From Terriglobales bacterium (lineage in GTDB: Bacteria > Acidobacteriota > Terriglobia > Terriglobales > Acidobacteriaceae): a stretch of 64,000 bases of DNA. Where the stretch lies: contig JAATGG010000090.1 in assembly GCA_015654835.1 (NCBI GenBank), positions 62,001 to 126,000 on the forward strand. The letters run 5' to 3'. The notes beneath the pieces are model-generated. The model was not told the origin of the DNA, did no database searches, and worked only from the letters and a program-made list of their open reading frames with translations. Shown here in pieces: positions 30,301-57,929 of the stretch. Both the position numbers and the translations under genes were made by a program. Each line of letters begins with the position of its first letter. Position 1 is the first letter of the stretch.

Positions 30301-32421
30301 CTACTTGGCAGTGAGACCGCGTGCCGCCCACTTATTCCACATCTTTTGATCGGCAAGCATTTTGATGTAGACGCCCCCCACCACAGACCGCGCCTGAAAG
30401 CCCATTTGACGCGCATTGACGGTGTCGTACCAGTCCGTCATCGGAACGCGATCGGGCGTCTGGTCGAGGAACTGCACGAGGGGATGAACCAGCGTCTGGA
30501 AGTCGCCCTGGTTGGCGGCAAGAGTCGCCGACCAGAGCGTCCAATCGAGCTTGGTGTACGTAGCACGATTGTCGAGCGGCAGTCCGAAGGCATTTATGTG
30601 GTTTTTGTAGAATGCGACTTCCTTCTCTGCCACGCTGGAGGGAAACTCGTTCAGGCCCAGGATCGTGTCCCACACCAGGTTGTACTTCTGGCTCCAGGTG
30701 CCGGACTTGTCGAAGGCCAGACGGTAGTGATCGCCATCGGCGGCCATGGATGTCCACTGTGTGGCCATGGACTTGGCGGCCTGCTCATACTTCTGGGCGG
30801 CGGCATGGTTGCCCATCTTCTCTGCTAACTGCGCATAGGCAGCCAGCGCCTCGATGGCCTTGATGGAGAGATTGGTGTTGTGCGCCAGATGCCCGGCAAA
30901 GTCATCCGTGCAGAGTTGATTCTCTGGATTGAAGCCCTTCTCCAGCAGATAGTCGGCCCACTTGGTGAGAAGCGGCCAGTAAGCAGCCGCGTAGGCCGCG
31001 CTGTTCTCGGCATGAGCAAGCGCCGCAACCAGAAGGATCATATCGCCGGACTCTTCGACGGGCATCTGGTTTTCTTCACTGACTTCGCCGCCGCCATAGA
31101 GCTGTCCGTTGGCCAGCGGATAGACACCGAGATCATGGGGGGCGAAGGGAAACTTCCAGCGCGGCGTCTCAGCATAGCGCATCACCGGTTCCACGAGTGC
31201 CTCCACTAATTTGGGATTAAGGAAGAGGAACATGGGGGCTTCTGGATAGATGACATCGACTGTCGAAATGGAACCGTTGCTGAAGTTCTCCTTGGGCATG
31301 AAGAAAGGCACACCTGCTGGATCTTCCACCAATTTGTGAGCGGCAATGGCCTGGCGGAATGCAAGGATGGAGATGGCAGCATAGTCCTTGCCGCCGGTCT
31401 GCGTCAGATCCTGCTCCAATTCAGCATCGTATTGCCCGGCGCGCTTCTGGAGGGACGCGTAGTCACGTTCTGCGGCCTGAAGCATCTCACTCAAGCCGGC
31501 AAATTGCTTGCGCCAATACGGCAATAAGTTCTGGTGCATGTATTGGACGGAATAGATGTCGTCATACGCCAGCAAGACGTGGCGGGTTACCGGCGCAGCA
31601 CCAACCTTGCCCATGGGCAAAGCCACATTGAGCAGAGGGGCAGAGGGATACCGGCTCTGCGGAACACGAGGCTGGTCGAGATCGTCTTCCTCCGGAAGTA
31701 CACCGGTGTGCGCAAAGCGATCACGCACCATGTGATTTCCTGCGGCCAGCGCAACTGCGCCCTGCGCATCGGGAACACCGACGTAAAAGTAGCCCCAGTC
31801 GATGCGAAGGTTATCTCCCCACTTTTCTAACATGGGCTGTTTCTGCGTGCCGACCTTTAGCAGATGAAGTCCAGGAATCTGCGCACGCGACCAGACAACC
31901 TGCTGATTTCCTTCATTGGTTGCCACCGAGCTTTCGGTATCCAGATAAACGGTTACGTCATGCTCGGCGCCGTCGCGCGACTTCACGTCCCAGGTCAAGT
32001 AAGTTACCGGCCGCGACATCACAGCGAGATCATCGGGAAATGCCGGGGTCAGAAAGCAAAGACGGAGTTCGACTGCGGTACTCTGCAGGGTAACGATGGT
32101 ACGCGTGGCGGTCACCTTGCGATCGATCTCCTTCATTTCCGGAGCCAGGTGATCGCCGTCGCCGAGATAGCGGTAGGTATGGCCGTCAACCCGCATGAGT
32201 CCGGTCATGGCTTGCGGAGTGCCGGTCCAATGGCGTGTGGGACCTTCTGTCAAATGGTCCGAATCAGACCAAATGCTGAAGTAGGGATCATGAACGACAA
32301 GCGGGGTAGCTGGATTGCGCAGTTTCACTGCTTTGTCCTGCTGCGCCTGCAGACCGGCAACGGCAGCGCATATGGATACGACTGCCAGGGCCACACATCC
32401 AGATAGCTTAGGCAATTTCAT
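30301..32421 (-). CDS. secreted glutaminase-like protein (DUF4964/DUF5127/DUF4965/DUF1793)
   Basis: This 706-residue exported protein has a signal peptide (CVALAVVSICAAVAGLQAQ), then VVHDPYFSIWSDSDHLTEGPT (DUF4964), a beta-sandwich DUF5127 part, and a C-terminal all-helical barrel (DUF4965/DUF1793) with FAPHDLGVYPLANGQLYGG and FAGHLAHNTNLSIKAI. Fungal relatives include the GtaA glutaminase, but in bacteria these proteins lie with glycoside hydrolases, and a carbohydrate role is possible. Here the gene follows GH51, GH115 and GH43-like genes on the same strand, at the end of the xylan block. No family-specific catalytic residues are established, so activity is left open. Confidence 0.85.
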   Translation of the reverse strand: MKLPKLSGCVALAVVSICAAVAGLQAQQDKAVKLRNPATPLVVHDPYFSIWSDSDHLTEGPTRHWTGTPQAMTGLMRVDGHTYRYLGDGDHLAPEMKEIDRKVTATRTIVTLQSTAVELRLCFLTPAFPDDLAVMSRPVTYLTWDVKSRDGAEHDVTVYLDTESSVATNEGNQQVVWSRAQIPGLHLLKVGTQKQPMLEKWGDNLRIDWGYFYVGVPDAQGAVALAAGNHMVRDRFAHTGVLPEEDDLDQPRVPQSRYPSAPLLNVALPMGKVGAAPVTRHVLLAYDDIYSVQYMHQNLLPYWRKQFAGLSEMLQAAERDYASLQKRAGQYDAELEQDLTQTGGKDYAAISILAFRQAIAAHKLVEDPAGVPFFMPKENFSNGSISTVDVIYPEAPMFLFLNPKLVEALVEPVMRYAETPRWKFPFAPHDLGVYPLANGQLYGGGEVSEENQMPVEESGDMILLVAALAHAENSAAYAAAYWPLLTKWADYLLEKGFNPENQLCTDDFAGHLAHNTNLSIKAIEALAAYAQLAEKMGNHAAAQKYEQAAKSMATQWTSMAADGDHYRLAFDKSGTWSQKYNLVWDTILGLNEFPSSVAEKEVAFYKNHINAFGLPLDNRATYTKLDWTLWSATLAANQGDFQTLVHPLVQFLDQTPDRVPMTDWYDTVNARQMGFQARSVVGGVYIKMLADQKMWNKWAARGLTAK

Positions 32422-32612
32422 TTTTGGTACTCTTTCTTAGGTTGAAATGATTAATTTTGCAAGATCGCTCTACAGAACAATAGCCCATTTGGGCTATTAC
32501 ATCCCCGTTGCTGCGCTGCGAAAGGGCCGAACTGCAGCACTCGTATGAATTGGACCCCACTTTGTATCTCCTTTCTCGGAGCTAAGTCCTCAAAGCCCCC
32601 CGGGTTCGCAAC

Positions 32613-34640
32613 TTATTGACGATCGACAGAAATCACGGTCACGCTCGCGTGTGGAAACGTGTGCGACCATCCGTCAGGCGTGGTCGATTCAAAGTTTTCT
32701 ACCACCTGAACATGAGCAGGATCGATTTCATCATTGATATCGTTCATGGAAGCGGAGGTCAGCAACTGCACCTTCGCTTTGCCGCTGGCTGCAAACTGGT
32801 GCAGCCGGATGGCGGCAGGGATGTCCGTATCGAGGCTGCGATTCACGCAAAAAAGCGATAGCCGCTTTCCATCTTGACTCAAGGCGGCTATTACATCCAG
32901 ATATGGTACCGCAGCGATATCCGGCAGGCGCTCGACTCCGTGAGAAACGGAGTAAGTTCCCGATTTCGCAGTGAACGAAACCAGTTTGTCGGCATCGGCA
33001 CTCGCATACATCTTAAAAACATAATATGCGGGAGTCGCATAAACCTGGCTGCGCTTCTTCCAAATGCCGGCGAACTCCATGATACCGGTCATGTCAGATA
33101 TCGGAACGGTATCCGCGTTGCGCATGAGCATATTGAGGATTCCACCGGTAAAGACCGCACCGCCGGTATTGGTGAAGTTGGGCGCACCGGCACGATGACC
33201 GGCAAACAACCATTCTGTCAACGCGAAATGTGCCTTGCCGTTGTAGCCCGGCGTGTTGTTGATCTGGCCCTGCACATCGTGCAACCGCCGCTCAATTTCA
33301 ATAGGCAGCGCCCATGCTGCGGCACTAACGAAATCGGTGGGCGCATTGTTTAACTGGACATTGCCCGCGCCCACGACAAAATGCGTTGATAGATAATCGA
33401 ATGTTTCCGGTGCATTCGTGAGTTGGATTGCGTTCCAATCTTTGAAGCGGTCGGGATCTCCGCCCGTGGCAATCAAACGAGCATGGGGATCGACCGCACG
33501 CACCGCCTTGCTGAAGTCGAGCGTCCGCTTGGCGAGTTCTTCGCGAGTGGGATAGCCAAGGTTCCAGTTTCCCCATAACTCATTGCCTAACTCAAATAGG
33601 AGCCCGGAGTGGGTGGTCCAATGCTCCTCAATGTAGCGCACCCAATCAGCAGCTTCCTGAGGAGTACCACTGCCCATATTGAGAGCAAACTGCGGATCGG
33701 CTCCAATCAGGCGGCAATACTCAAGGAACTCGTCAGTCCCGAACGTGTTGTACTCCGGAATTCCCCAGGAGTTATTGCGCATGCTGATGCGCTTGTCATG
33801 TGGCCCGATGCCGTCGCTCCAATGGTACGACGAAGTGAAGTTTCCGCCGAAACGCACCAGAGGAGAATGCATCTCTTTCGACAGCTTGACCGCATCGGGA
33901 TCAAAGCCGTCTTGGGCATCGGCCGGCCTCAGCGAGAATTCGTCCAATTCGATGCGCTCATCCCCTGTGAGTTGCAGAACGAAATCGGCAGGGTCAAGGT
34001 GGTGCAGCTTGCCTTCAGGAACGTGGAGCGTGAAGGTGTATTTCTTCCAAGCACTGTCTGCGACATCGATCTGCTGCGATGCGAGAATCGTATCTTGTTC
34101 CCTGAGGCAAAGCGCGACGAGGATAGTGGTATTTCCGCTGAGGTGCCTTGCGTAGAAACTGCCCACGTAATCGGGGGTGCGGTGAATAGGAAGATATATC
34201 TTCTGCTTAATTCCCGTTGTCTGTCCAGGAACAGCAAATACCCTCAACGATAGCCACGAGTTGGCGGCATCGCCGGAATGAACTTCATAGCGATTCCCTT
34301 GCCTCTCATCCAACGGCTCCCAAGGCAGCGGTAAAGATAGCTCGCTGGCACGGCGTAACTCAGGCCGCTCGTGCACCATCTCAGTCACGTTCTGCGCCGA
34401 CCATAAACCTTCTTCCAGACTGGGATTTTGAAGGACCTCAGCCCAGAGGCCATTATAGGTCGAATTGCCGATGGGCTCGAGAAACGTTCCAAAGATGGTG
34501 CGAGGAATGGACCGCTGCTGTACTGCAGACGAATCGATATCGATGGTTGCCACTTTCGGAATCGGTTCGGTTACGGTCAGTTGACCATAGAGAGAGGCTG
34601 TGCCCAAAAATACCAATATTAGCGGAATCTCTTTCTTCAC
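32613..34640 (-). CDS. alpha-L-arabinofuranosidase (GH51-like)
   Basis: This 675-residue secreted enzyme should remove alpha-L-arabinofuranosyl side groups from arabinoxylan or arabinan. A short signal (IPLILVFLGTASLYG) is followed by IFGTFLEPIGNSTYNG, the usual first barrel strand of GH51. A carbohydrate-binding-like sandwich is inserted at about residues 110-240. The catalytic pair is Glu354 in FELGNELWG (acid/base) and Glu476 in ALTEWLFAG (nucleophile). The start is GTG (34640) with GAAGGAAGG upstream. It lies between GH115 and the DUF4965 gene, as expected for an arabinoxylan operon. Confidence 0.92.
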   Translation of the reverse strand: MKKEIPLILVFLGTASLYGQLTVTEPIPKVATIDIDSSAVQQRSIPRTIFGTFLEPIGNSTYNGLWAEVLQNPSLEEGLWSAQNVTEMVHERPELRRASELSLPLPWEPLDERQGNRYEVHSGDAANSWLSLRVFAVPGQTTGIKQKIYLPIHRTPDYVGSFYARHLSGNTTILVALCLREQDTILASQQIDVADSAWKKYTFTLHVPEGKLHHLDPADFVLQLTGDERIELDEFSLRPADAQDGFDPDAVKLSKEMHSPLVRFGGNFTSSYHWSDGIGPHDKRISMRNNSWGIPEYNTFGTDEFLEYCRLIGADPQFALNMGSGTPQEAADWVRYIEEHWTTHSGLLFELGNELWGNWNLGYPTREELAKRTLDFSKAVRAVDPHARLIATGGDPDRFKDWNAIQLTNAPETFDYLSTHFVVGAGNVQLNNAPTDFVSAAAWALPIEIERRLHDVQGQINNTPGYNGKAHFALTEWLFAGHRAGAPNFTNTGGAVFTGGILNMLMRNADTVPISDMTGIMEFAGIWKKRSQVYATPAYYVFKMYASADADKLVSFTAKSGTYSVSHGVERLPDIAAVPYLDVIAALSQDGKRLSLFCVNRSLDTDIPAAIRLHQFAASGKAKVQLLTSASMNDINDEIDPAHVQVVENFESTTPDGWSHTFPHASVTVISVDRQ

Positions 34641-34728: not shown

Positions 34729-36879
34729 CTATTGAACGTTCACGGTGCGATTTCCTTCGTACTGCAGGATGTGGTAGTACGCCTCCCAATCGTTCCAGTC
34801 AATCGGCGGTGGAACAGGGATCTGCGGATCTTCGAGGAATTGCTCAAAATGAGCAAGTGCTGCCTGTGTACGCGCGACGCCGGTCAGCCAATCGCCACGA
34901 TACCAATTGCGCCATTGTCCGTACTCTGCAGCTTTCTCCGCATCTCTAAGACGATTAAGCGCACTCTCCGCCTTTTCAATCTCCTCACGCGCCGTGGCAG
35001 CGTGGCCCGATTCATACTCCAGGACGGCGCGTGCCACGTGCAGCAACATATCGTTGCCTTCCATATTGATTGAAATCATTGTCAGCACCTGCGCCTGGTA
35101 GAAGTCCCGGCGAGACGGGTCTACCTTCTGCACTGTCTGTTGCGCCTTTGCATACAACGATTGCCAGCGGGGTTGTGCCTCGCCGCATACGGATTGCTGG
35201 CGCGTTGCCTGCTCCATGAGCCAGCGCTGCCGATTGTCAGGACCCAGGATGTGGGGAGTCTGCCATTTCGGCGCCTGATCCGGCAGCACGTAGGTGGGCA
35301 TATCGACTTCTGCATAGAGCAGCATTTCCCGCGCCACTGTGTGATACATCTGATCGCCGTATTCCTGTCCGCCAGGCGTATGAGCGGGGGCGGCAAAGTA
35401 TTGGTTGTAAATCTCTGCAACGTCATCTGCAGCAGGGGCACCGAACTGATCCTTGGCCCAGCGGTGATAATACTCACCGGCCTGTCCTGCAGAGAGAGAC
35501 CCCCAGGCCGCTTCCATCACGGCGCGAGCAGACATCGTGACGGGCCGAAGATCGCTTGTGTTAACCAGGTAGAATTGCGTGGCGCCAGCCTGTGCAAAGC
35601 GGGTTGTCTCCGATAGCAGACGATCCAGTGGCACCATCTCAGACAATTGATTCGCTTCATTATTCATCATGGCGATATGCAGGTAGGCACCCTGCCCTTT
35701 GTTCACCTGGCCGTTATCTTGCAGTTTGCCATATCCTGTATCCGACCACACCGTGATGACTTCCGGCGGAATCGTGAGCGCGCCTTTTTTCATCAACTGA
35801 TTGCCCTCTGCCCACAGATCCGTGACAAACAATGCATTCGGATAGCGTTCGCGAACAATCTTCATCTGATCGGCGATGGCCTGACTGATTCTTCCGCCCA
35901 ACGCTTTGTCGTTATCCTTCACCGAAGGGTCCGAGGAGGAGTAAGCTGTATCGGAAAGGCCACGCAGTCCGACCTCCCAGAGCACCTCCTGGCCTGGAGC
36001 GTAAGTATTCACTGCATTTCTCCATGCACGCTGAAGGATATCGGCATGATGCGTGTAGTCGTACGGAACCCCTTTCGGCCATCGTGCGATGTTAACTCCC
36101 AAGGGCGTGGCATGATGTTGCGACAACAGCAACCCTCTGTCAGCTACCAGCTTCACTTGACCATCATCCGGGAAGATCCAGGTTCCCGGAACTACCATGT
36201 TTCCTTTGAGCCGCAGAATCGTCTCGAAGATACGGTTCCACGCATCGAGCGAGATGCCACTGTGCTCGTTTGCTTTGGCAGGCGCCCACCCAGTAAGAAG
36301 GTCCTCGTCGTTAATGAAGAAACCGCGGAAGCGATAGAGGGGGCCGGGGTCGCTGCGGGAATAGTCGCCGGGCAACTCAATCACGGTCTGCCGCTTCGGT
36401 TCGTGATCCGTCCACAAGTACATCGGGTCCACTCCCAGCACTTCCTGCGAGAACGTGTAAATGGCATAGATCGTACCGCGCATGTCCGCTCCACGAAGCA
36501 GAACTTCATCGTATTTCTCTGCAGAATTGTGTTCGTGCGCAACCTGCAAGGTAAACGATTCTGGTGGAGCAGGTTCTTTTGCCGACGCAGGAGCGATCGT
36601 TCCGATAACAAGCAGCGTGCCGCCTCCCTGGCGCTCGTGAACGATTCGAGGTGTCGCGCCAAATACTTTCGACATATCATTGGCCAGATCGCGAGTAGCC
36701 AATTGAACGGGTTCCGGGGCCGATGCACTCACTAAAATGGCAGTATTACGGTCAATGCGAATGGGCTGTACTTTCTGAGCCAACACAGCAGCACTCCCAA
36801 ACATCAGACCCACTAGAGATACCGTGATTGCGCGGCGGACTAAGCAAGGGAAACAGGATCTCACTTTAGATTTCTCCAT
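34729..36879 (-). CDS. xylan alpha-1,2-glucuronidase (GH115)
   Basis: GH115 enzymes take off 4-O-methyl-glucuronic acid from xylan, also on internal residues. The protein (716 residues from ATG 36879) begins with EKSKVRSCFPCLVRRAITVS and a signal peptide cut near AVLAQ. Family features are YDEVLLRGADMRGTIYAIYTFSQ, YRFRGFFINDEDLLTGWAP, PGTWIFPDDGQVKLVADRG, QHHATPLGVNIARWP and SDTGYGKLQDNGQ. The catalytic acids are not settled by me. A longer frame to 37026 would overlap the promoter region of the gene and lacks a signal at its N-terminus. It forms a unit with GH43-like and GH51 genes. Confidence 0.92.
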   Translation of the reverse strand: MEKSKVRSCFPCLVRRAITVSLVGLMFGSAAVLAQKVQPIRIDRNTAILVSASAPEPVQLATRDLANDMSKVFGATPRIVHERQGGGTLLVIGTIAPASAKEPAPPESFTLQVAHEHNSAEKYDEVLLRGADMRGTIYAIYTFSQEVLGVDPMYLWTDHEPKRQTVIELPGDYSRSDPGPLYRFRGFFINDEDLLTGWAPAKANEHSGISLDAWNRIFETILRLKGNMVVPGTWIFPDDGQVKLVADRGLLLSQHHATPLGVNIARWPKGVPYDYTHHADILQRAWRNAVNTYAPGQEVLWEVGLRGLSDTAYSSSDPSVKDNDKALGGRISQAIADQMKIVRERYPNALFVTDLWAEGNQLMKKGALTIPPEVITVWSDTGYGKLQDNGQVNKGQGAYLHIAMMNNEANQLSEMVPLDRLLSETTRFAQAGATQFYLVNTSDLRPVTMSARAVMEAAWGSLSAGQAGEYYHRWAKDQFGAPAADDVAEIYNQYFAAPAHTPGGQEYGDQMYHTVAREMLLYAEVDMPTYVLPDQAPKWQTPHILGPDNRQRWLMEQATRQQSVCGEAQPRWQSLYAKAQQTVQKVDPSRRDFYQAQVLTMISINMEGNDMLLHVARAVLEYESGHAATAREEIEKAESALNRLRDAEKAAEYGQWRNWYRGDWLTGVARTQAALAHFEQFLEDPQIPVPPPIDWNDWEAYYHILQYEGNRTVNVQ

Positions 36880-36973
36880 TTGCTCTGGATGCTCAAACTG
36901 AACGGGCAAGCCCGCAGCGGGGAGCGGAGGACCGCTCCGCAGATGCTCCTCGCGAAACGCGAGGAGTGCCGGG

Positions 36974-38023
36974 TCAGCGTGAGCCTTGGCTGTCCCAGTG
37001 AAGATCGGGCATTGGTTTATCTCCATGCCAGAGAATTGGGATCATCGAAATATAGTAGGTTTTCCCCTGGTCATTGTTTCCCTGATAGAAGAGATATGTT
37101 TTCTTGCCATCCTGCAAGATACCCGGGTGTCCAGACTCAGAGAGATTCCAGCTTCCGGGAACTCCATTTGGCAGAAAAGGTGAATCCGACAGCCGCTTCC
37201 ATCTGCGGCCATCCCGGCTCATTGCGACGCCGATCTGCTGTGGCCGGTTATTATAAGCGCCGGCATAAAACATGTAGTAATGCCGCCCGTGCCGCACAAC
37301 ACTGGGAGCCTCAATACAAAGCTCCTCCCATGGCAATGTTGGAGCAAGCAAGGGGCCATCTTTTGTGAGATCGTGCCATGCACCGGCACCGAAGTCAGAA
37401 TCAAGATCCGCTTCCGCCATACCGATCATCTGACGCTTCATCTCCGGATCTCTTGTGGCGAAATAGAGGTATGCCTTGTTCTTCTCCGGAACCGTGATGA
37501 CCTCGGCATCGATCGCCCGGCCTACACTCCATTTAGAAGCCGCTGGTTTGTAGACCGGATTCGAGGCATCGTGGATAAAGTGGACCCCATCATTCGAAAC
37601 GGCATGACAAATTGCATCGGCACTGCCTCGCCCATAAGTCTGATAGAAGAGGTGGACCTTTCCCCGAATGACGCGAGCACCAGGCGCCGCGATACCTCGG
37701 CTCTCCGCGACCTGACTGGGCAACAACTCTCCTACCTTGCCCCAGTGAGCGAGATCCCGGCTCTCTGCAATTCCTATACTCCATCCGCTTTCTTCATTGT
37801 CGGCAACCAGCCCATGATGCTGCTCCGAAGGGGGAATGCTGTAGTAAAGAAGATAGCGACCTTCGAACTCCACGACAGAGGGATCTTTGGCGAAGGGCAG
37901 TCCCTTTCGCGAGGTGTCAGAGAAATAGACTCTCGGCCGGACAGCAGAGCTACCTTGGGCAATCAATTGGTTATGCGGAATGAAGGCTGCGAGCAGAAGA
38001 GCGGCTAGTGCGGACTTGATCAT
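36974..38023 (-). CDS. GH43-like five-bladed beta-propeller glycosidase
   Basis: This 349-residue secreted protein has a signal peptide (SALAALLLAAFIPHNQLIAQG) and a five-bladed propeller of the GH43/GH62/GH117 group. Candidate catalytic acids are the Asp in FAKDPSVVEFEGRYLLYYS (general base), the Asp in SVGRAIDAEVITV, and the Glu in CIEAPSVVRHGRHYYMFYAG (general acid). The usual substrates are xylo-oligosaccharides or arabinosyl side chains, fitting the neighbouring GH115 and GH51 genes. Exact family placement (GH43 versus a relative) would need a profile search. ATG 38023, preceded by CAGGGAATAAAA, is preferred over 38041. Confidence 0.8.
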   Translation of the reverse strand: MIKSALAALLLAAFIPHNQLIAQGSSAVRPRVYFSDTSRKGLPFAKDPSVVEFEGRYLLYYSIPPSEQHHGLVADNEESGWSIGIAESRDLAHWGKVGELLPSQVAESRGIAAPGARVIRGKVHLFYQTYGRGSADAICHAVSNDGVHFIHDASNPVYKPAASKWSVGRAIDAEVITVPEKNKAYLYFATRDPEMKRQMIGMAEADLDSDFGAGAWHDLTKDGPLLAPTLPWEELCIEAPSVVRHGRHYYMFYAGAYNNRPQQIGVAMSRDGRRWKRLSDSPFLPNGVPGSWNLSESGHPGILQDGKKTYLFYQGNNDQGKTYYISMIPILWHGDKPMPDLHWDSQGSR

Positions 38024-38105
38024 TTTTATTCCCTGACGCATCTTACCGATGGCGTCGACAGGAAGAATGGATCAAATGAACTAGGCCTGCTCTCTTTTTG
38101 AGAAG

Positions 38106-38777
38106 CTAGATATTGTCGAGCTGAATGATGCCCCGCTTCAGCGCCAGCACCGAAGCTTCAGTGCGGTCCTGCACCTGCATTTTGCTGATAATACTGTTGA
38201 CGTGATTGCGAACCGTGTATTCGCTGATTGCAAATTTCTCGCCAATCCCCTTGTTGGTGAGGCCTTTGGCAACCCAATGAAGGATTTCTATCTCCCGTGA
38301 AGTAAGAGCATCGCGTTCACATCGCTGCGCCAGCTTCTTTGCAAGCACAGGATTCAGGTATCGTTTGCCCGAGTACACGCGACGTATCGCATGTACTATC
38401 TCATCCTGAGGAGCATTCTTCGTGATGTACCCGGAGGCGCCGGAGGCAAGGGCGCGGAAAATCTCTTCGTCGGTTTCATAGCTGGAAATCATAAGGATGC
38501 GCGCGGTCAAAAAGCGCCTTCTGATGATAGCTATGGACTCCAGGCCACCGATATCCGGCATGCGGAGATCAAGCAGGAACACATCTACAGCCTCCTCCGG
38601 TGCAATCGTATCGATCTGCTTTACCGACGCTAGGGTGGCAATCACCTGTATATCCGAGTGGGTCGACAACATGCTACTGAGCCCCACAAGGATCGCAGGA
38701 TGGTCGTCAATGATGATGATCCTGGCCGGATTCGTATTGGGCGGCAATGAAAAGACAGGCGATTCCGTGTTATTCAC
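38106..38777 (-). CDS. NarL/LuxR-family response regulator
   Basis: This 223-residue regulator has a receiver domain with the acid pair in IIIDDHPAIL, the phosphoacceptor Asp in VFLLDLRMPD, the conserved Ser in LMISSYETDEE and Lys in GYITKNAP. Its C-terminal LuxR helix-turn-helix is LTSREIEILHWVAKGLTNKG...ISEYTVRNHVNSI. It overlaps the sensor-kinase gene by ATGA, so the two form a pair. It is the last gene of the sensory operon and probably activates the xylan genes next to it and/or the TonB receptor gene; that target is inference. Confidence 0.95.
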   Translation of the reverse strand: MNNTESPVFSLPPNTNPARIIIIDDHPAILVGLSSMLSTHSDIQVIATLASVKQIDTIAPEEAVDVFLLDLRMPDIGGLESIAIIRRRFLTARILMISSYETDEEIFRALASGASGYITKNAPQDEIVHAIRRVYSGKRYLNPVLAKKLAQRCERDALTSREIEILHWVAKGLTNKGIGEKFAISEYTVRNHVNSIISKMQVQDRTEASVLALKRGIIQLDNI

Positions 38778-40210
38778 AGGCGATTGTTCTCCTTCCTCAA
38801 GTTTGATAAAGCCCTCATCAGGCGGGCGGGTCTCTGACCGGAAGGTACGGATACTCTGACAAGAGTTCCAGCACCTAGCGAGCTGGATACTTCAAGCGTG
38901 CCTCCATGAGAATGTGCCCTCGTATTCATCGCACGGAGTCCGAAGCCACCGCGGCGCTTTGCTGCCGGCACGAAGCCGCAGCCATCATCGCGAATTTCAA
39001 GAACCGCTACTTCATCGAGGACTTGCAGCGAGATTGCGATGCAGGAGGGAGCGGCATGACGTATCGCGTTCGTTATTGCCTCGTGGCCGATCCTAAGGAG
39101 GACATCCTCGACTGCGTGCGGTATTCGAGAAAGATCCCCCTGCACATTTACCGAGAACCGGACATTGCCCCCACGGGTAAGTACCTCGCCCTGTTGCCGG
39201 AGATTCTCCAGCACACTTCCGGCATCGAGGTCCGCAGGCTTCAGCATCGCGATGGAGCGTCTCGCATCTTCCTGACAGTGCGAAACCATGCCAATCGCGA
39301 GGTCAACCTGTTTTTCGAGATTGAGGGCACCCAAGCGCATCGCGTTCCGGACCGCTTGCAATTGAAAGGCGATGCCGGTGAAGCTCTGCGCAAGCGTATC
39401 GTGAAGGTCATGCGCCATTCGGGTGCGCTCATCGAGAACCAGCTTGAATCGCCATCGTTCCATGCGGACATAGAGCATCATGATCCCCAACCCCAGAGCC
39501 ATCGCGCAGCCTGTCACTTCAAGCACGTGGGTGCGATTCCAGAACGGAGGAGGCGAGACGACTTTGACGTCATCCGCAGAGCGAGGAATGACGGTAAACG
39601 GCACAGCCTCACCACTGCGACGATCATCCATGATGCAGATGCCCCGCACTCGGATGACCGATCTGAGGTCGAGCTTTCTTGACCGTGTTTTTGTTGGATC
39701 TATCGGCAGTTCGGCGACGAATGATTCGCGCCCACCATCCAGCAGCAGCCAGCGCACTCCATTGGCATTTCGGACTTCCCTGAGGACTCCTTCTGTCTCA
39801 ACAAACATGCGGTCGTAATTACCCGACGCGGCCATATTTACTGTTACAGATACTGCGGGATCAGGAACCCCGGGATTCAGAACTCTGACATCGGATGCAC
39901 TGAGGCGCGATGAGTAGCGCCCCTGACTGAGTCTCCCCTTCACAAGGACTTCATCACCGATGTGCAAGCCTGGGACTGGAGCACTCAGGCTCACCTCCAT
40001 TCCACCTGTTCGGTCCTGAATAAAGAGAGGCATGCCTGTCTTATTGACCACTCCTCGAACTACATGGTCCGTCTCCCGAGCGCCTACGTCCAAACGAAGA
40101 AGCCCAATGGGCTCTACTCTGCTTGCTGCCGGCACCTGGCAGCGGATTTCGGCAGAAGGGCCGACGCTCAGACAGAGAGTCAGCAGGACATAGACTCTGG
40201 AACGGATCAT
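38774..40210 (-). CDS. sensor histidine kinase with exported OB-like sensing domain
   Basis: This 478-residue kinase of the NarX/DesK (HisKA_3) type has a signal-like N-terminus (VYVLLTLCLSVGP). The exported region at about residues 40-190 resembles an OB-fold (VVRGVVNKTGMPLFIQDRTGG, GDEVLVKGRLSQG), as found in other acidobacterial sensors. One membrane helix follows (TGCAMALGLGIMMLYVRM), then RMAHDLHDTLAQSFTGIAFQL with the phosphoacceptor His and a HATPase_c domain (GHEAITNAIRHA, DDGCGF). ATG 40210 overlaps the preceding gene by 4 bp. It probably works with the lipoprotein and LamG-like protein upstream to sense sugar outside the cell. Confidence 0.92.
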   Translation of the reverse strand: MIRSRVYVLLTLCLSVGPSAEIRCQVPAASRVEPIGLLRLDVGARETDHVVRGVVNKTGMPLFIQDRTGGMEVSLSAPVPGLHIGDEVLVKGRLSQGRYSSRLSASDVRVLNPGVPDPAVSVTVNMAASGNYDRMFVETEGVLREVRNANGVRWLLLDGGRESFVAELPIDPTKTRSRKLDLRSVIRVRGICIMDDRRSGEAVPFTVIPRSADDVKVVSPPPFWNRTHVLEVTGCAMALGLGIMMLYVRMERWRFKLVLDERTRMAHDLHDTLAQSFTGIAFQLQAVRNAMRLGALNLEKQVDLAIGMVSHCQEDARRSIAMLKPADLDAGSVLENLRQQGEVLTRGGNVRFSVNVQGDLSRIPHAVEDVLLRIGHEAITNAIRHAAPSCIAISLQVLDEVAVLEIRDDGCGFVPAAKRRGGFGLRAMNTRAHSHGGTLEVSSSLGAGTLVRVSVPSGQRPARLMRALSNLRKENNRL

Positions 40211-40893
40211 CGAAGGGCCTCGACCGAGATTCGGCGCCAAGTGCCTCCCGCAGCAAACGAGCGGAGTCCGAATGCGCCCTGCCTGTCGCATCCATTTGCA
40301 TCATCGAAGGCTGCCGATGCTATCTCTTTTCCATTTGCATCAAAGGCGGCCGCGCTGATGGCGCATCCTTTAGCGAAAACGGCGAGGTGGTACCAAACAT
40401 TCGGGTAGACTCCCTGTGCAATCCGGATTCTCCTCAAGGGAGTGAAGCCGTAATCCATCTTGCCGAGCAGGAGTTCGTCAGGAAGTCGAATCCCCACATA
40501 GTACCCATAAAATGCGTTAGTCCCTTCCTCGGGCCGTGTAACTCGAACGATGACCCCAGCATCGCCAAACGTGCTCGTAAGCCGCACATCCGCATCCATG
40601 CGGTAGTCGGCAGTATTCTCCTGGCCTGTAACCATTTTTGTTCCAGTATCGTCAGAATTATTCGATACGGCACCATTCATAATCTGCCAGTTGCCGCCAT
40701 AGCTTACCCATTCGTCCATCCTTCCATCGCTGAAATGATCCTGATACGGAAGCCGGCCACCGGTGCGCCATGGAAAGATGAGCGCGGCCGCGAGCAGGCC
40801 GCCAGCGACAATCACAGTAAACAGCGACCACCTCAGCACTCTTCGAATAGGAAGATTGGCCAATGACCCCCATATCTTTGAATAGATCGTCAT
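40207..40893 (-). CDS. membrane-anchored LamG/jelly-roll-type protein
   Basis: This 228-residue protein has one membrane helix (LFTVIVAGGLLAAALIFPW, about 23-42) and an exported domain that looks like a concanavalin-type jelly roll (LamG or 3-keto-disaccharide-hydrolase-like). Segments supporting this are YQDHFSDGRMDEWVSYGGNWQIMNG, YRMDADVRLTSTFGDAGVIVRV, YYVGIRLPDELLLGKM and CDRQGAFGLRSFAAGGTW. Such folds commonly bind sugars. It overlaps the gene before and after it by ATGA, so it is firmly part of a four-gene sensory unit. It may be the sugar-reading partner of the sensor kinase; no enzymatic residues are apparent. Confidence 0.75.
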   Translation of the reverse strand: MTIYSKIWGSLANLPIRRVLRWSLFTVIVAGGLLAAALIFPWRTGGRLPYQDHFSDGRMDEWVSYGGNWQIMNGAVSNNSDDTGTKMVTGQENTADYRMDADVRLTSTFGDAGVIVRVTRPEEGTNAFYGYYVGIRLPDELLLGKMDYGFTPLRRIRIAQGVYPNVWYHLAVFAKGCAISAAAFDANGKEIASAAFDDANGCDRQGAFGLRSFAAGGTWRRISVEALR

Positions 40894-41888
40894 CGATCGA
40901 ACCCCTTGTAGGGCTTGAGAAATTCCTGCGCCGGGGCAGAATCGACATTCGTTCTGGTAAGCAACATGGGCTTCACCGTATAAGAACGCGGAGTAGCGCC
41001 ATGCAGGACGGCGCCCATAATTTCGTGAACAGCAAGGTAGCCAATCTCATAGGTATTTTGCGCAATCAGGCCGTTCAAGTGCCCGGACCGGAGTTCATCG
41101 AGAAGATCGGACTCCTGATCACAGGCGATGATCGCGGGGCGGCTCGCACTGTTGAGACTCTGCAGAGAGGATAGGACATTTTGGGTTCCGCTGACGCTGA
41201 CTGTGAAGATCGCGTTTGGTTTCGCGTGGACGGTACCGAGATCGTCCACCTCCGCGTCATAGGTCCGCGTCATGTTGTTCCGGGTGAATGTTCTGGCGGC
41301 GATGCGAATGGAGGGGTAGCGCCTGTGAATTTCAGCCTCGAAGCTTGCCGCACGCGCCAGGGTGGCAGAACTGGACGGATCAATACCGACGATTGCAACT
41401 GCTCCTCTTCCGTGAATCAGTCCAGCAACCGCCTCCGCCCCAAGGCGGCCGGTTTCCGTATCGTCGCTTGTGATCGTCGCAACAGGCGGTGTCAAGGGCA
41501 TCGCCAGGTCATTCGAGGTAATAACGATCGGAATGCCATCGCGCTGTGCCCTGGCTGTAATTGGAACGAGAGCCGAGGCTTGCGCCGGCGCAAGAATGAT
41601 GCCGTCGACTCGCCGCTTCAGCTCCTGCTGAACGAGATCAATTTGCCTCTCGAAATCATCCTCGTGCGTCGGCGCATTCCAGTACCGCTGACAATGCACC
41701 TCCAAACATGCCTTGTATACTCCCGCATGCATCCCCTTCCAGAGATCCATCGTCGTCAAGGGGGTGATGAGAGCAATAACAGGCACCTTCACAGGCCTGC
41801 TGCATGAGGGCAGCGACACCAAGAGGAAGAGAATAATGACCGCACGTACGAAACCGGCGGCGCATTGTTTCGCAGTGCTTCGTCGCAT
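40890..41888 (-). CDS. sugar-binding lipoprotein (LacI/RbsB-type periplasmic fold)
   Basis: This 332-residue exported lipoprotein has a hydrophobic leader (AVIILFLLVSLPSC) with a lipobox Cys, followed by a type I periplasmic binding fold of the ribose/galactose-binding group: VPVIALITPLTTMDLWKGMH, VDGIILAPAQASALVPI, RDGIPIVITSNDLAMPL, ITSDDTETGRLGAEAVAGLI, and PAIIACDQES near the end. No ABC transporter genes accompany it. Instead it is joined by ATGA to a LamG-like gene and then a kinase, so it probably feeds sugar binding into signalling. ATG 41888 is preferred to the long frame from 42053. Confidence 0.85.
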   Translation of the reverse strand: MRRSTAKQCAAGFVRAVIILFLLVSLPSCSRPVKVPVIALITPLTTMDLWKGMHAGVYKACLEVHCQRYWNAPTHEDDFERQIDLVQQELKRRVDGIILAPAQASALVPITARAQRDGIPIVITSNDLAMPLTPPVATITSDDTETGRLGAEAVAGLIHGRGAVAIVGIDPSSSATLARAASFEAEIHRRYPSIRIAARTFTRNNMTRTYDAEVDDLGTVHAKPNAIFTVSVSGTQNVLSSLQSLNSASRPAIIACDQESDLLDELRSGHLNGLIAQNTYEIGYLAVHEIMGAVLHGATPRSYTVKPMLLTRTNVDSAPAQEFLKPYKGFDR

Positions 41889-42083: not shown

Positions 42084-45000
42084 CTAAAATACCAGCTTCG
42101 CACCAAATGCCATTGTTCGAGGCTGTCCAGTGGTACCGGTGATTTGACCAAAGTTAGTTGGATTGCTGAGTGTGGCATTAGGAGTAGAGAAGTTCGGGTG
42201 ATTGAAGATGTTGAATGCGTCGGCCCGAAGCTGAAGGTTCATGTGCTCAACGACTATGCGCTTTGAAAGGGTCATGTCCCATTGCTGGTATCTGGGACCA
42301 TACAGCAGGTTATAGGCTGAGTTCCCGAAGGTATACGGCGCAGGTGCTGCAAATGCGGCATTATTGAACCAATGGCCAAGATTTTTCTTTTTGGGATACA
42401 ACGCCACACCATTCACGCGATTGGCCCTGCTGTTATACGAGCCTTGAACGCTGGTGTTGTAATTCACAGAGAAGGGTTGCCCTCCCTGATATTGCGTGAT
42501 GCCGGAAACCTCCCAGCCAGCAACCAACGTATTCGCGACAGATCCTAAATTTGCGAGCAGTCGCCGCTGATGACCGAAAGGAAGAGCATAGCTGTAGCTC
42601 ACGTTCAAGGTCTGCGGCGTGATTCCGCCAATGTTGCCGAACGAATCATCGGTATGCATGGGATCGACAAAGTTCTCTGTGCCAAGAACGCGAATCCACT
42701 CATACTCAGCATTGATCTGAAATCCCGACTCGAACCGCTTATGAACACCAATCTGCAGTGCGTTGCTGGTGGAGTGAAAGATCGGATCTGTCGTCAGATA
42801 GATCGAGGCAAAAGGCTGTATCGGCCGGCGCGGTTGGACGGCACCAGGTGCAGGTGTGGGCTGGTTAAGATCCGGGGTTGTATTACCTGGACCGTTGGAG
42901 TTGTTCTGTTTGAGATTGCGCTGGCCCACGTAGCCAACGCGGAGAGATGTGGTCCGACCGATCTGCTGCTCGATGGCCAGATTGTATTGCTCAGCATACG
43001 GTACTTCTGTCTTGTGCGCTGCGTTGACGCTGGGATTCGATGCGAAAGCGCCCGTTCCACCGAACGGTGCGTACATTGTTATAGCAGGCGCGCCTGTTGG
43101 TTGAGAGAACGTCTGCACACCAAAATAGGGAATGTTCTCGAAGGCGTAATTCTGGATGTAGTACTCAGGGAAAAGATTGTAGTACAGTCCGAAACCGCCG
43201 CGAACGACAGTCCGCGGGCGAGCCTGATAGGCAAAGCCGAATCGAGGCGCGATATTCTTGTTCGGCTGCCCTAGATAGGCAAACACATCCTGAGGCAGAT
43301 GGACATCGGACGCGAACACCATCGGGAGTCCGGAGAATGCAGGGATAGCCGGCTGCGGTGCAGAGGCTGACGGATAGTCCGAGCTGAACAGAACGATCTT
43401 CTGTAACTCCGGCACATAGAGCGAATTATTTCCGTAGGAGCTGTCATTGAGATGCTGGAGGTCATAACGAACTCCAAGACTCAGAGTCAGTTCTGGAATC
43501 GGACGCCAGTCGTCCTGAATAAACACACCTGCCTGATGAGAGACGTTCAGCAATTTCTGCGAATTTGGATTTGGCTTTTGCACAGAGGAAGGATAGCCAA
43601 GCAGAAAATCCGCATAGGCATTGCCGGAATACTGGCCGTTAAAGTTGTAAGATCCACGTTGCGGCGAAGCAGCGATAAGGTTTGCCGTGCTGTCATGCAA
43701 ATAGGAGAATCCTGCTTTGAAATTATGCTTCCCCATGGTTTTAGTAAATGTGCCGCTGAGCTGAATCGTCTGCCCAAGCACCTTGCTTCCTGCTTCGCCC
43801 ACTGAAGTGATATTGCTGATGGATATCTGTGGGGCACCTTGAATCACCTGAGGGCCGAGTCCCGGAATCATTGCCGAGAAATCGGTATTGTTGTTCTGCG
43901 GCGTTCTGTAGACAGGCAGATGAAGGTAGGCAGCCGTGAGATCGCCAACTGCGGTGGACGAAAAGATATGCGTCCAGCCCAACACCGTATTCATGTTTCT
44001 TTCCCCGACTCCCGACATGCCGCCGAACTTGCTGGTCGCACCGGTCGTTGGGTTAGGACCATACAGACCCGCAATGTAGCTGGCACGAACCATGTCCGCG
44101 TCCCCGATCTTGTGGTCGAGGCGGAAGGAATATCGATTTACAGTTTGGGTGTAGGGAACCAATTCATACGTATTCGTGCCGGTACCGCTCGTTGTTGGCA
44201 ATGGATAAAGAGTATCCTGCAACTGGCGGTCGACTGTATTGATTCGTTCAGTGGGTATCTGGTTTCCATAAAAAGCCTGACCTGTCAGTGGATCCTGAAG
44301 TACAAGCCCTGAAAACTGACTAAAGTCGCCTTTTCGCTGCGCAACGGTTGGCATCTGCGAGTTCAAATTTGAAGCCTGCAGAAGCCGGAACCCTTCGTAG
44401 TTAAAGAAGAAGAACGAACGGTTTGTTCCGTTGTAGATATGTGGGACTGAGATGGGTCCGGAGAAATTGCCCCCGTACTCGTTGCGAATGTACTTCGGCT
44501 TGGGCTGCGATCCCGCGAAATAAAACTTGGCGGCGGTTGCAGCAACGCGATTGAATTCCACAAGCATGCCATGATATTGATTTGTGCCGCCCTTGCTGAT
44601 CACAATGATCTGCGCTGCCTGGTTGTATTCAGCGGGAGCATTGGTGGTGAGTACCTTGAATTCTTCAATGCCATCAAGCGGAGGAACCTCACCGAGCGGG
44701 CGTTGCAGGCCCATGTTCATGTTCACACCGCCGTCAAGAGTGAAGCCTACAGCGCCCAATGCATTGCGGGCACCGGAGTTAATGGCCGGCGTAATGCCAT
44801 AAACCGGAATCTGATCCTGGCTGCCGGCTGCCTGCACACCAGGCGCCAACGCAAGCAATCCGGTGATGCCAAGTCTGCCATTCAGCGGCGTATTGGTGAT
44901 CGTCACCGAATCTATCAGCAATCCAACCGAAGGATCCGAGGTTTGAATTGGCGGAGCGTCGGCGGTTACGGTAACTTCTTCTTGCTGGGCACCGATCTGC

Positions 45001-45374
45001 AAGCGTGGATTAATCCCCGCTATTTGGCCGATGGTGAGCGTGATATTTTGTTGCTGATAGGTCTTGAACCCGCTCTCAGTTACGGTCAGGAGGTAATGAC
45101 CGGGAGGTAATTGCGAAAGCGTGTAGCTTCCGCTTTCAGATGATTGAGTCGTACGATCGATGCCGGTATCGACATTGTGCGCGATCACGGTAGCTGCAGG
45201 AATGAGCCCGCCGCTATCATCGCTAACCACGCCAAAGATGGTAGCCGTTGTGCCGGTCTGTGCCGGCAGCTTTACGACAAACGCCAAAATCAGCAGCAAT
45301 CCTGCGAAAAGTATCGAGAAGGCGCATCGCGGCAATTTGATCGTCGTCTGTGGGTGAAGCAATTGATAATTCAC
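42084..45374 (-). CDS. Oar-type TonB-dependent outer-membrane receptor
   Basis: This receptor of about 1096 residues belongs to the acidobacterial Oar-like group. It has an N-terminal signal (CAFSILFAGLLLILAFVVKL) and a carboxypeptidase-regulatory-like beta-sandwich (IFGVVSDDSGGLIPAATVIA ... GSYTLSQLPPGHYLLTV). A plug domain with DGGVNMNMGLQRPLGEVPP follows, then a large beta-barrel ending in NIFNHPNFSTPNATLSNPTN and a final aromatic residue (FGAKLVF). It likely imports oligosaccharides across the outer membrane. GTG 45374 with GGAGGAACA upstream is the better start. It lies upstream of the sensory operon on the same strand and should be the uptake door of that locus. Confidence 0.9.
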   Translation of the reverse strand: MNYQLLHPQTTIKLPRCAFSILFAGLLLILAFVVKLPAQTGTTATIFGVVSDDSGGLIPAATVIAHNVDTGIDRTTQSSESGSYTLSQLPPGHYLLTVTESGFKTYQQQNITLTIGQIAGINPRLQIGAQQEEVTVTADAPPIQTSDPSVGLLIDSVTITNTPLNGRLGITGLLALAPGVQAAGSQDQIPVYGITPAINSGARNALGAVGFTLDGGVNMNMGLQRPLGEVPPLDGIEEFKVLTTNAPAEYNQAAQIIVISKGGTNQYHGMLVEFNRVAATAAKFYFAGSQPKPKYIRNEYGGNFSGPISVPHIYNGTNRSFFFFNYEGFRLLQASNLNSQMPTVAQRKGDFSQFSGLVLQDPLTGQAFYGNQIPTERINTVDRQLQDTLYPLPTTSGTGTNTYELVPYTQTVNRYSFRLDHKIGDADMVRASYIAGLYGPNPTTGATSKFGGMSGVGERNMNTVLGWTHIFSSTAVGDLTAAYLHLPVYRTPQNNNTDFSAMIPGLGPQVIQGAPQISISNITSVGEAGSKVLGQTIQLSGTFTKTMGKHNFKAGFSYLHDSTANLIAASPQRGSYNFNGQYSGNAYADFLLGYPSSVQKPNPNSQKLLNVSHQAGVFIQDDWRPIPELTLSLGVRYDLQHLNDSSYGNNSLYVPELQKIVLFSSDYPSASAPQPAIPAFSGLPMVFASDVHLPQDVFAYLGQPNKNIAPRFGFAYQARPRTVVRGGFGLYYNLFPEYYIQNYAFENIPYFGVQTFSQPTGAPAITMYAPFGGTGAFASNPSVNAAHKTEVPYAEQYNLAIEQQIGRTTSLRVGYVGQRNLKQNNSNGPGNTTPDLNQPTPAPGAVQPRRPIQPFASIYLTTDPIFHSTSNALQIGVHKRFESGFQINAEYEWIRVLGTENFVDPMHTDDSFGNIGGITPQTLNVSYSYALPFGHQRRLLANLGSVANTLVAGWEVSGITQYQGGQPFSVNYNTSVQGSYNSRANRVNGVALYPKKKNLGHWFNNAAFAAPAPYTFGNSAYNLLYGPRYQQWDMTLSKRIVVEHMNLQLRADAFNIFNHPNFSTPNATLSNPTNFGQITGTTGQPRTMAFGAKLVF

Positions 45375-45834
45375 TGTTCCTCCATAAGCGTTCAACGGCT
45401 GAAAAACGGAACAGTATGCACCATAATCTCAACAGTACTCTTCCTCATCCGTGATCTGAACGCGCGAGCAATAGTAAGCAAATCGCAATACACCAGTCAT
45501 GGTAGGAATGAACTACGCTTCAGATAGCCGGAATGCCGGAGGAAAAGGGGCCTGTCGATCACAGACTGTGAAGTCGAGAGTTCGCTCAGCCTTGCGTCAG
45601 CAACCAACTGAGGCCGCTGAAAATTTTGCCTTACTTAGGAGAGGGGTAGAGTCTCATTGCGATCGAACCATTGCCGCAAGGGCGAAATGTCATTCCGGCG
45701 CTCTGCCCACCAGCCACCGGTGGGCAAACTCGCAAATCATAAATTGGTCGATGCGATTCAGCAGTTCCATATCCGCGGTCGGCTGCAGTCTCTCCTCGCC
45801 CAATTCAATGCTCACTACGTCCTGTGCTCCGGGA
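45375..45834. promoter_or_regulatory. TonB-receptor promoter region and GH31 3' end
   Basis: No gene is supported. Two AACAGTA boxes (45410-45416 and 45431-45437) are 21 bp apart, two helical turns, upstream of the receptor start. They could be regulator half-sites. A stem TGCCCACC (45704-45711)/GGTGGGCA (45719-45726) lies about 110 bp past the GH31 stop and may end that transcript. Confidence 0.35.
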
Positions 45835-56503: not shown

Positions 56504-56906
56504 CAGGTTGCCCTCTGTGGAACCGATACCAGTTGTACCACATTGTCCCCTAGAAATGCAGTAACGATCGAGAATCATTTTGTGGAATTCGATCTTATCT
56601 GAAAATAGAACTACAAACCTCCGCGGCAGTTGGTAGAAAAACGCGCTTTATGCTGTCGTGCAGGCTGGCTGCGCCAACTGTACGGGACTTCACCTAGCGC
56701 GGACCTCCGACGATTGATATCTGGAACCGTTGCCATCCCGGCCAGCACAGTGTAAAGTGATCAGTGATCGTCGAGGCTTGCATTGTCTCTAGGACGCGCC
56801 TGATTTTTGCAGACGCGTAGCACCCGAAATCGGCTTTTGCTCTGGACACAGGTGCTGTCCGCTGCTCACAGGGCACGGCTCGAAATTGCGAAGGACGTCT
56901 AATTAC
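56504..56906. promoter_or_regulatory. divergent spacer upstream of the LacI gene
   Basis: No complete gene is seen. The ribosome-like AAGGACG lies just before the LacI ATG. On the other side, between the GH2 and ROK-remnant starts, the minus strand reads TATGTAACAGCAACATTAAC, which shares TAACAG with the palindrome at 62690 and could be a regulator half-site. Confidence 0.3.
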
Positions 56907-57929
56907 ATGATCAGTACCCGGAAGAGTCGCCCTACTCTCCACGATGTTGCCAAAGCAGCCGGCGTCGGTACCACTACGGTGTCTCGCGTCATCAATGGGG
57001 GGCATTATGTTGCGCCCAAAATGCTCGCTCGCATCCAGCGGGTGATGGCAGACCTTGGGTATCAGCCGAATGAGGCAGCCCGGTCTCTGAAGAGCGAACG
57101 CTCGAGGACCATAGGGCTCATCATCCCCTCCATCACCGACCCTTTTTTTGCGCAGTTTGCTGGAGTGGCCGAAAGTTATGCGCGCCGCGAAGATTATGTG
57201 CTTATTCTGCTCGCATCGCAGGATAAGCCCCAATTGGAGTTAACCGACTTACAGATATTCGAGCGTCATCGTGTAGATGGACTTCTTCTCGTGCCGCCTC
57301 GTTCCGGCTCAAAGGCGTTGATTCAGAATCTTCGCCGCCTCTCTGTTCCTGTGGTGGCTTTTGACCGCCCCATCGCTGGCCGGGACTACTCCAGCGTTGT
57401 TTCAGCTAACAGTACCGCCGCGGAAAATGCAGTGCGCCATTTGATTAACCACGGCCGCAAGCGAATTCTGTGTCTCGGCGGCGATCCCAACCTCTATACC
57501 ATTCGTGAGCGCGTAAAAGGCTACACTGCCGCTCTCACGGCGGCGGGGCTGGAAACGATGATAGAAATGGAGGCATCGGACTACGAGTCTGCCGAAGCAG
57601 CCATTATGAAGCACATGTCGGCTCGGGGAAAGATTGATTCGATTTTCGGACTGTATAACCAATCGACAATCCGCGCATATGAAGTGATGCAGAACCACAA
57701 TATTAGTGTTCCGGAATGCGTAAGCCTGGTCGGGTTCGACGATTTCGCGCTGGCAGCCACGCTTCGTCCCTCGATAACCGTGGTCCGGCAGTCAATTGAA
57801 GAACTAGCCCGGACAGCGACCCAGCTTCTGCTGAATCACATGGCCGGTGAGGCCAACTCTCCTCAACAGATTGAAATTGCAGCGAACCTTGTGATCCGGC
57901 AGTCATGCGGATGTTCGGCGAAGCGTTAA
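56907..57929 (+). CDS. LacI-family transcription regulator
   Basis: This 340-residue regulator has an N-terminal LacI helix-turn-helix (PTLHDVAKAAGVGTTTVSRVINGGHYVAPKM) with the hinge-helix AARSLKSERSRTIGLIIPS, then a periplasmic-binding-fold sensor (VDGLLLVPPRSGS, VPVVAFDRPIAG, VSLVGFDDFALAATLRPSITVV). It probably binds a sugar from mannoside breakdown and represses the surrounding minus-strand genes. Within its coding limits only ATG 56907 has a helpful upstream box (AAGGACG). It ends 18 bp from the convergent esterase gene, with no terminator seen. Confidence 0.93.
   Translation: MISTRKSRPTLHDVAKAAGVGTTTVSRVINGGHYVAPKMLARIQRVMADLGYQPNEAARSLKSERSRTIGLIIPSITDPFFAQFAGVAESYARREDYVLILLASQDKPQLELTDLQIFERHRVDGLLLVPPRSGSKALIQNLRRLSVPVVAFDRPIAGRDYSSVVSANSTAAENAVRHLINHGRKRILCLGGDPNLYTIRERVKGYTAALTAAGLETMIEMEASDYESAEAAIMKHMSARGKIDSIFGLYNQSTIRAYEVMQNHNISVPECVSLVGFDDFALAATLRPSITVVRQSIEELARTATQLLLNHMAGEANSPQQIEIAANLVIRQSCGCSAKR

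Follow-up and report, generated by a model that had tools for sequence, protein, structure and literature searches.

What role does a sugar-binding lipoprotein have when its gene is linked to those of a histidine kinase and a response regulator? The question is raised by a four-gene unit located at 38106-41888 on the minus strand of the window, i.e., the whole stretch of 64,000 nucleotides from a Terriglobales bacterium that was analysed; the coordinates given in the original prediction were verified. The unit encodes a binding protein (PBP) and three further products:

40890..41888, minus strand: PBP (Peripla_BP_4, Pfam 2e-36), predicted lipoprotein and putative sugar receptor; signal peptide ending in LPSC (lipobox read by eye)
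40207..40893, minus strand: CBM66-like jelly-roll protein, membrane-tethered (Pfam 3keto-disac_hyd, PF06439, 8e-9)
38774..40210, minus strand: histidine kinase with signal peptide, tandem OB folds, one membrane helix, HisKA_3 and HATPase_c (Pfam HisKA_3 9e-14)
38106..38777, minus strand: NarL/LuxR-type response regulator with a GTG start (Response_reg 2e-23, GerE 2e-18)

According to their domains, a HisKA_3 kinase with a NarL-type regulator, the last two proteins form a two-component system of the NarL/DesK type, and the regulator additionally gave NCBIfam matches to MctR and NarL, both below the cut-off. The PBP and jelly-roll genes overlap by ATGA, as do the jelly-roll and kinase genes; this had been claimed for all junctions, but the third, between the kinase and regulator genes, reads GTGA, GTG being the start codon of the regulator gene. 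Among 61 same-strand relatives, 52 have a start codon of the second gene that shares bases with the PBP stop codon, so the overlapping arrangement is not due to chance.

The unit had been placed between a TonB receptor and GH43/GH115/GH51 genes, and the Pfam matches on both flanks agree with this location:

42084..45395, minus strand: Oar-like TonB-type outer-membrane receptor, probable target (OMP_b-brl_4 2e-194, CarboxypepD_reg)
36974..38041, minus strand: GH43/GH32/GH130-like glycosidase, probable target (Glyco_hydro_43 8e-18, GH32N 3e-11, GH130 3e-6)
34729..37026, minus strand: GH115 (alpha-glucuronidase family), probable target (Pfam 6e-58; true start may be further in)
32613..34640, minus strand: GH51-type alpha-L-arabinofuranosidase, probable target (Alpha-L-AF_C 1e-14; NCBIfam ArfA 1e-46, below cut-off)
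30301..32421, minus strand: DUF4964/DUF5127/GtaA protein, probable target (Pfam 4e-138)

Matches to the OMP_b-brl_4 receptor family number 77 in the genome of the window, some being pieces of one gene.

Conservation and folds of the putative sensor components

The gene set is not scattered in relatives. A scan of further genomes yielded 80 loci, 71 of which have the jelly-roll with the kinase, the PBP, or both, almost all of them labelled as Acidobacteriaceae or other Acidobacteriota. Among these 71 loci, the PBP was present in 68, the kinase in 70, a full-length jelly-roll-kinase fusion in 59, and the regulator in most; a receptor-family gene was found in 64 and adjoined the unit in 45. Other neighbours in relatives include genes encoding TPR proteins, GH127, sulfatases, ArfA-like proteins, and the DUF4964/GtaA family also seen beside the unit in the window. 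The jelly-roll domain occurred in 36 of 80 congeneric genomes, while in a sample of the phylum, with seven candidates scored per genome, its profile matched at least 13 of 396 genomes, all within the same family.

Because the jelly-roll and the kinase are one protein in most relatives, the window represents a rare split form; the gene order sought in other acidobacteria is thus conserved as a cassette, usually of three genes and not of four. A second set in the genome of the window, on contig C162, likewise encodes the jelly-roll and the kinase as one protein of 724 residues. The co-directional split form recurred once among the loci read (L046), and eight loci (L153, L155-L159, L162, and L170) make up a class in which the jelly-roll is encoded on the opposite strand. 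One contig with this opposite-strand cassette class, L162, is labelled Rhodanobacteraceae, reflecting either gene transfer or mis-binning. In the best final tree, the fused forms did not all fall in one group, and forcing them together was not rejected (p-AU 0.27); the window copy formed a long, deep branch. Pairwise distances of the PBP, the jelly-roll, and the kinase correlated with each other at r 0.90-0.93, those of the regulator with these three at r 0.77-0.80, and those of the receptor gene showed the lowest values (r 0.50-0.55). As linked genes share their history, these correlations support joint inheritance and not, by themselves, contact.

Profile matches of the PBP included 4wut, 6sw4, and 5xsj/5xss. 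The second-best of these, 6sw4, is an arabinose-binding protein which we take to be AraP, and 5xsj/5xss presumably belong to the XylFII structure series; judged from these profiles, XylFII and an arabinose-binding protein are similar to the PBP of the unit. A third PBP-like gene of the genome, on C206, was set aside, its protein start being that of a LacI-type regulator.

The structure model of the jelly-roll protein (mean pLDDT 92.6) superposed on CBM66 (4azz) with Z 23.1 and an rmsd of 1.8 Å over 156 residues (VIA-align), which placed CBM66 at the top of the fold list, followed by mouse galactocerebrosidase with Z 21.9. The Foldseek comparison with CBM66 gave E 1.2e-9, and the sequence profile matched the CBM66 of levanase with E 7e-7; the jelly-roll is therefore nearest to CBM66 in both fold and sequence. 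The tether of the originally described LamG-like protein is borne out, and "LamG-like" proved too loose a term, to be replaced by CBM66-like. Residues C177 and C202 are invariant. In Chloroflexi and actinobacteria, proteins 794-836 residues long (L152, L164-L167) each have two copies of this jelly-roll in tandem at the C terminus.

The kinase model (mean pLDDT 86.9) consists of two five-strand sets, a long helix whose first part is the membrane segment, and a kinase core; H270, N381, and D408 are invariant. The two strand sets precede the membrane helix, and the OB family PF01336 was matched by 13 of 57 relatives, in line with the exported OB-like domain that had been proposed. DesK was the nearest solved kinase; the best 50 Foldseek matches of the model were all kinase structures, so that the OB pair was assigned no solved counterpart. 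Among 117 locus entries with the jelly-roll and the kinase, drawn from two partly overlapping sets, the OB pair and the PBP were both present in 110 and both absent in 7 (L054, L055, L089, L118, L149, L151, and the shortened copy L056). As most of these seven entries are closely related among themselves, the joint absence may go back to a single event. Because the two parts are present or absent together, the OB pair is likely the docking site of the PBP. The kinases of L054, L055, L089, L118, L149, and L151 are short, with the jelly-roll fused straight to the kinase.

Predicted operator palindrome

When inverted repeats were counted upstream of the PBP and receptor genes, an 18-bp palindrome, RTRGTNCA-NN-TGNACYAY, stood far above shuffles; in relatives, it lies upstream of the unit and of receptor genes. 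With a symmetric matrix trained with the tested cluster left out, 50% of the upstream regions reached the threshold of 15 bits, versus 2.9% of random windows scored with the full matrix. Because the consensus was derived from the same group of loci, near-independence is limited to the leave-cluster-out test and the window test, and even for these two the seed consensus had been picked from all loci. The variable positions 6 and 13 were complementary in 36 of 69 sites, versus 19.6 expected.

For the window, which was left out of the matrix training, four sites scored above 12.5 bits, one in a gene and three in intergenic positions before genes of the cluster (binomial p = 0.024, using the intergenic fraction of the whole window):

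38067..38084, no strand: predicted operator with the sequence ATGGATCAAATGAACTAG, located 26-43 bp upstream of the GH43-like gene (start 38041); 19.6 bits with the matrix without the window
45499..45516, no strand: predicted operator located 104-121 bp upstream of the receptor gene (start 45395); 14.6 bits, 13.8 with the other matrix
32480..32497, no strand: predicted operator ATAGCCCATTTGGGCTAT with fully complementary half-sites, 59-76 bp before the DUF4964/GtaA start at 32421; 12.8 bits, 14.3 with the other matrix

The best score ahead of the window's own PBP gene was only 6.8 bits.

In the 80 congeneric genomes, 29 strict sites were found, 17 of them no more than about 4 kb away from a unit, and the reversed-pattern control matched in ten of these genomes. 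The strict site in G054 (L234) is situated beside the PBP and receptor genes of a unit cut by the contig end. The remaining sites were mostly inside genes, apart from the PadR-like cases discussed below; those in L238 and L239, within receptor genes, were taken as chance. In the genome of the window, one-mismatch sites showed no excess over the reversed-pattern control (5 versus 6), and two of them (C102:12940 and C251:5345), located inside called open reading frames, were likewise attributed to chance. The same genome carries a receptor-kinase-regulator set with a strict operator match and neither PBP nor jelly-roll (L043; C181, 705-6744), which by its gene content is related to the unit but would receive its signal from another kind of sensor.

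Alternative explanations

The PBP could feed an ABC transporter encoded elsewhere, the two-component system being an independent neighbour. Peripla_BP_4 proteins usually feed CUT2 importers, and a CUT2 permease was found in 11 of the 36 congeneric genomes with the jelly-roll domain. However, the other 25 have none, and the permease family PF02653, for which the search control was positive in 12 of 14 genomes, had zero matches in the genome of the window (91.65% complete), as expected of the originally described binding lipoprotein without its usual transporter. Together with the correlation of PBP and kinase distances at 0.93 and the co-occurrence of the PBP with the OB pair, this makes a role in transport very improbable. 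A second possibility is that the jelly-roll belongs to the 3-keto-disaccharide hydrolase family and converts the signal, which would make the unit partly catabolic. PF06439 is matched by 65 of 65 aligned members, the window copy scores 36.2 bits against a gathering cut-off of 26.8, and 8v31, an Alistipes 3-keto-2-hydroxy-glucal hydratase, appears at Foldseek rank 31. Against this, CBM66 heads the fold list, and the domain is membrane-tethered, kinase-fused in most relatives, and retained where the PBP and the OB pair are missing, so that an enzymatic function appears quite unlikely.

The palindrome might also be the target of a different regulator, for instance one of the LacI or PadR type, with the kinase-regulator pair acting elsewhere. 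A LacI gene is located within the window (56886-57929), and ATAGTTCA-NN-TGAACTAT occurs directly before PadR-like genes in L231 (5621) and L232 (5538) and inside the start of another in L235 (5713), these genes being called PadR-like on visual inspection of the protein starts. In L233, a similar strict site (3866) is some 230 bp away from a different kind of gene. We nevertheless regard a foreign regulator as unlikely: about two thirds of the strict sites in the 80 genomes adjoin a unit or a receptor-kinase-regulator set, and the palindrome has the geometry of a NarL-type site, in which a 2-bp centre separates two heptamers. Regarding the ligand, it had been proposed that the unit probably rules xylan use, and the predicted operators before the receptor, the GH43-GH115-GH51 genes, and the DUF4964 gene are consistent with an arabinoxylan-type set. 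The cluster also contains mannosidase-type genes, i.e., two GH38, a GH92, and beta-mannosidase-type GH2 genes upstream, and the ligand is not readable from sequence. Sensing of mannan or N-glycan sugars instead of xylan or arabinan is possible, if doubtful, as no intergenic operator-like site precedes the mannosidase-type genes, the strong match at 51456-51473 being inside a GH38 gene, and the predicted sites stand before the other set.

Proposed mechanism and comparison with known systems

The comparisons establish the cassette, the folds, and the operator association, with no CUT2 permease detected in the genome, and the SBP gene is linked to kinase and regulator genes both here and in relatives, as in three-component systems. 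From these sequence-based data, we put at about 0.78 the probability that the unit is a transporter-free, SBP-dependent three-component sugar sensor whose regulator acts via the palindrome on the receptor and glycosidase genes. A sugar set free in the periplasm or outside the cell would bind the tethered PBP, and the PBP in turn would dock on the kinase at its tandem OB ectodomain. The CBM66-like protein, a separate anchored subunit here and the N-terminal domain of the kinase in relatives, may bind an oligosaccharide or set the resting state. The DesK/NarL-type kinase, whose motifs are intact, would then phosphorylate the regulator, and this would recognise the 18-bp palindrome upstream of the receptor gene and of the nearby glycosidase genes and alter the expression of these genes, most likely by activation. 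The multicomponent sensor originally envisaged is supported by the conserved cassette, the jelly-roll-kinase fusion in most relatives, and the joint absence of the OB pair and the PBP.

With somewhat less confidence, we favour the view that the unit represents a family-wide class of sugar-responsive regulators, in which a transporter-free PBP would act on a tandem OB ectodomain, with CBM66-type polysaccharide sensing and an operator of its own switching on a TonB-type receptor and glycosidases. If so, it would be the Acidobacteriaceae counterpart of the Bacteroidetes glycan regulators, with a PBP apparently kept for sensing without the usual importer. Acidobacteria are abundant in soil, and their genomes are rich in genes for TonB-type receptors and glycosidases; the control of such loci is not described in the papers found, and the cassette with its predicted operator provides a testable regulator for this widespread group. 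The literature searched contained no acidobacterial paper on such a system, nor the combination of a CBM66-like module, an OB ectodomain, no detected CUT2 importer, a receptor neighbour, and an own operator. The earlier statement that no standard name exists therefore stands for the combination and not for the type, since the principle of SBP-dependent three-component systems is already known from XylFII-LytS and CuaDSR.

In XylFII-LytS-YesN of Clostridium beijerinckii, an SBP is likewise combined with a histidine kinase and a regulator, and contact of the SBP with the kinase ectodomain is known (PMC6321045, PMC10384115). XylFII is among the nearest solved PBPs, but our unit differs in its HisKA_3 kinase with OB folds, its NarL-type regulator, the extra CBM66-like part, and the outer-membrane receptor as neighbour. 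LytS and YesN are a kinase and a regulator of a different class, and their target is the ABC transporter xylFGH. In CuaDSR of Ruminiclostridium cellulolyticum, termed a three-component system, a lipoprotein SBP binds its kinase and sharpens sensing (PMC10384115). Unlike the unit described here, that system is Gram-positive, and its targets are an ABC transporter and a cellobiose phosphorylase. AraPST of Geobacillus comprises a sugar-binding protein and a two-component system at a hemicellulose locus and is linked to an ABC importer; to our knowledge, it has no CBM66 or OB parts. It is a Firmicute system, in contrast to our unit, and the arabinose-binding protein 6sw4, presumably its AraP, is the second-best match of our PBP; the name araPST is used in PMC4194401.

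The CBM66 of levanase SacC and the Cohnella CsCBM66 are nearest to our jelly-roll in fold and sequence, and known CBM66 members bind fructan ends or xanthan (PMC11002231). Whereas the known modules are on enzymes, the CBM66-like module here is on or beside a kinase. Another histidine kinase, LadS, carries the periplasmic domain DISMED2, of predicted fold with a CBM-like binding site (PMC4866733). Its 7TM architecture is different from that of our kinase. We know of no SBP or sugar locus associated with LadS. Finally, the HTCS of Bacteroidetes regulate outer-membrane glycan uptake and GH genes; there, a single hybrid protein with a beta-propeller sensor is used, whereas the PBP, the jelly-roll, the kinase, and the regulator are separate proteins in the unit described here.
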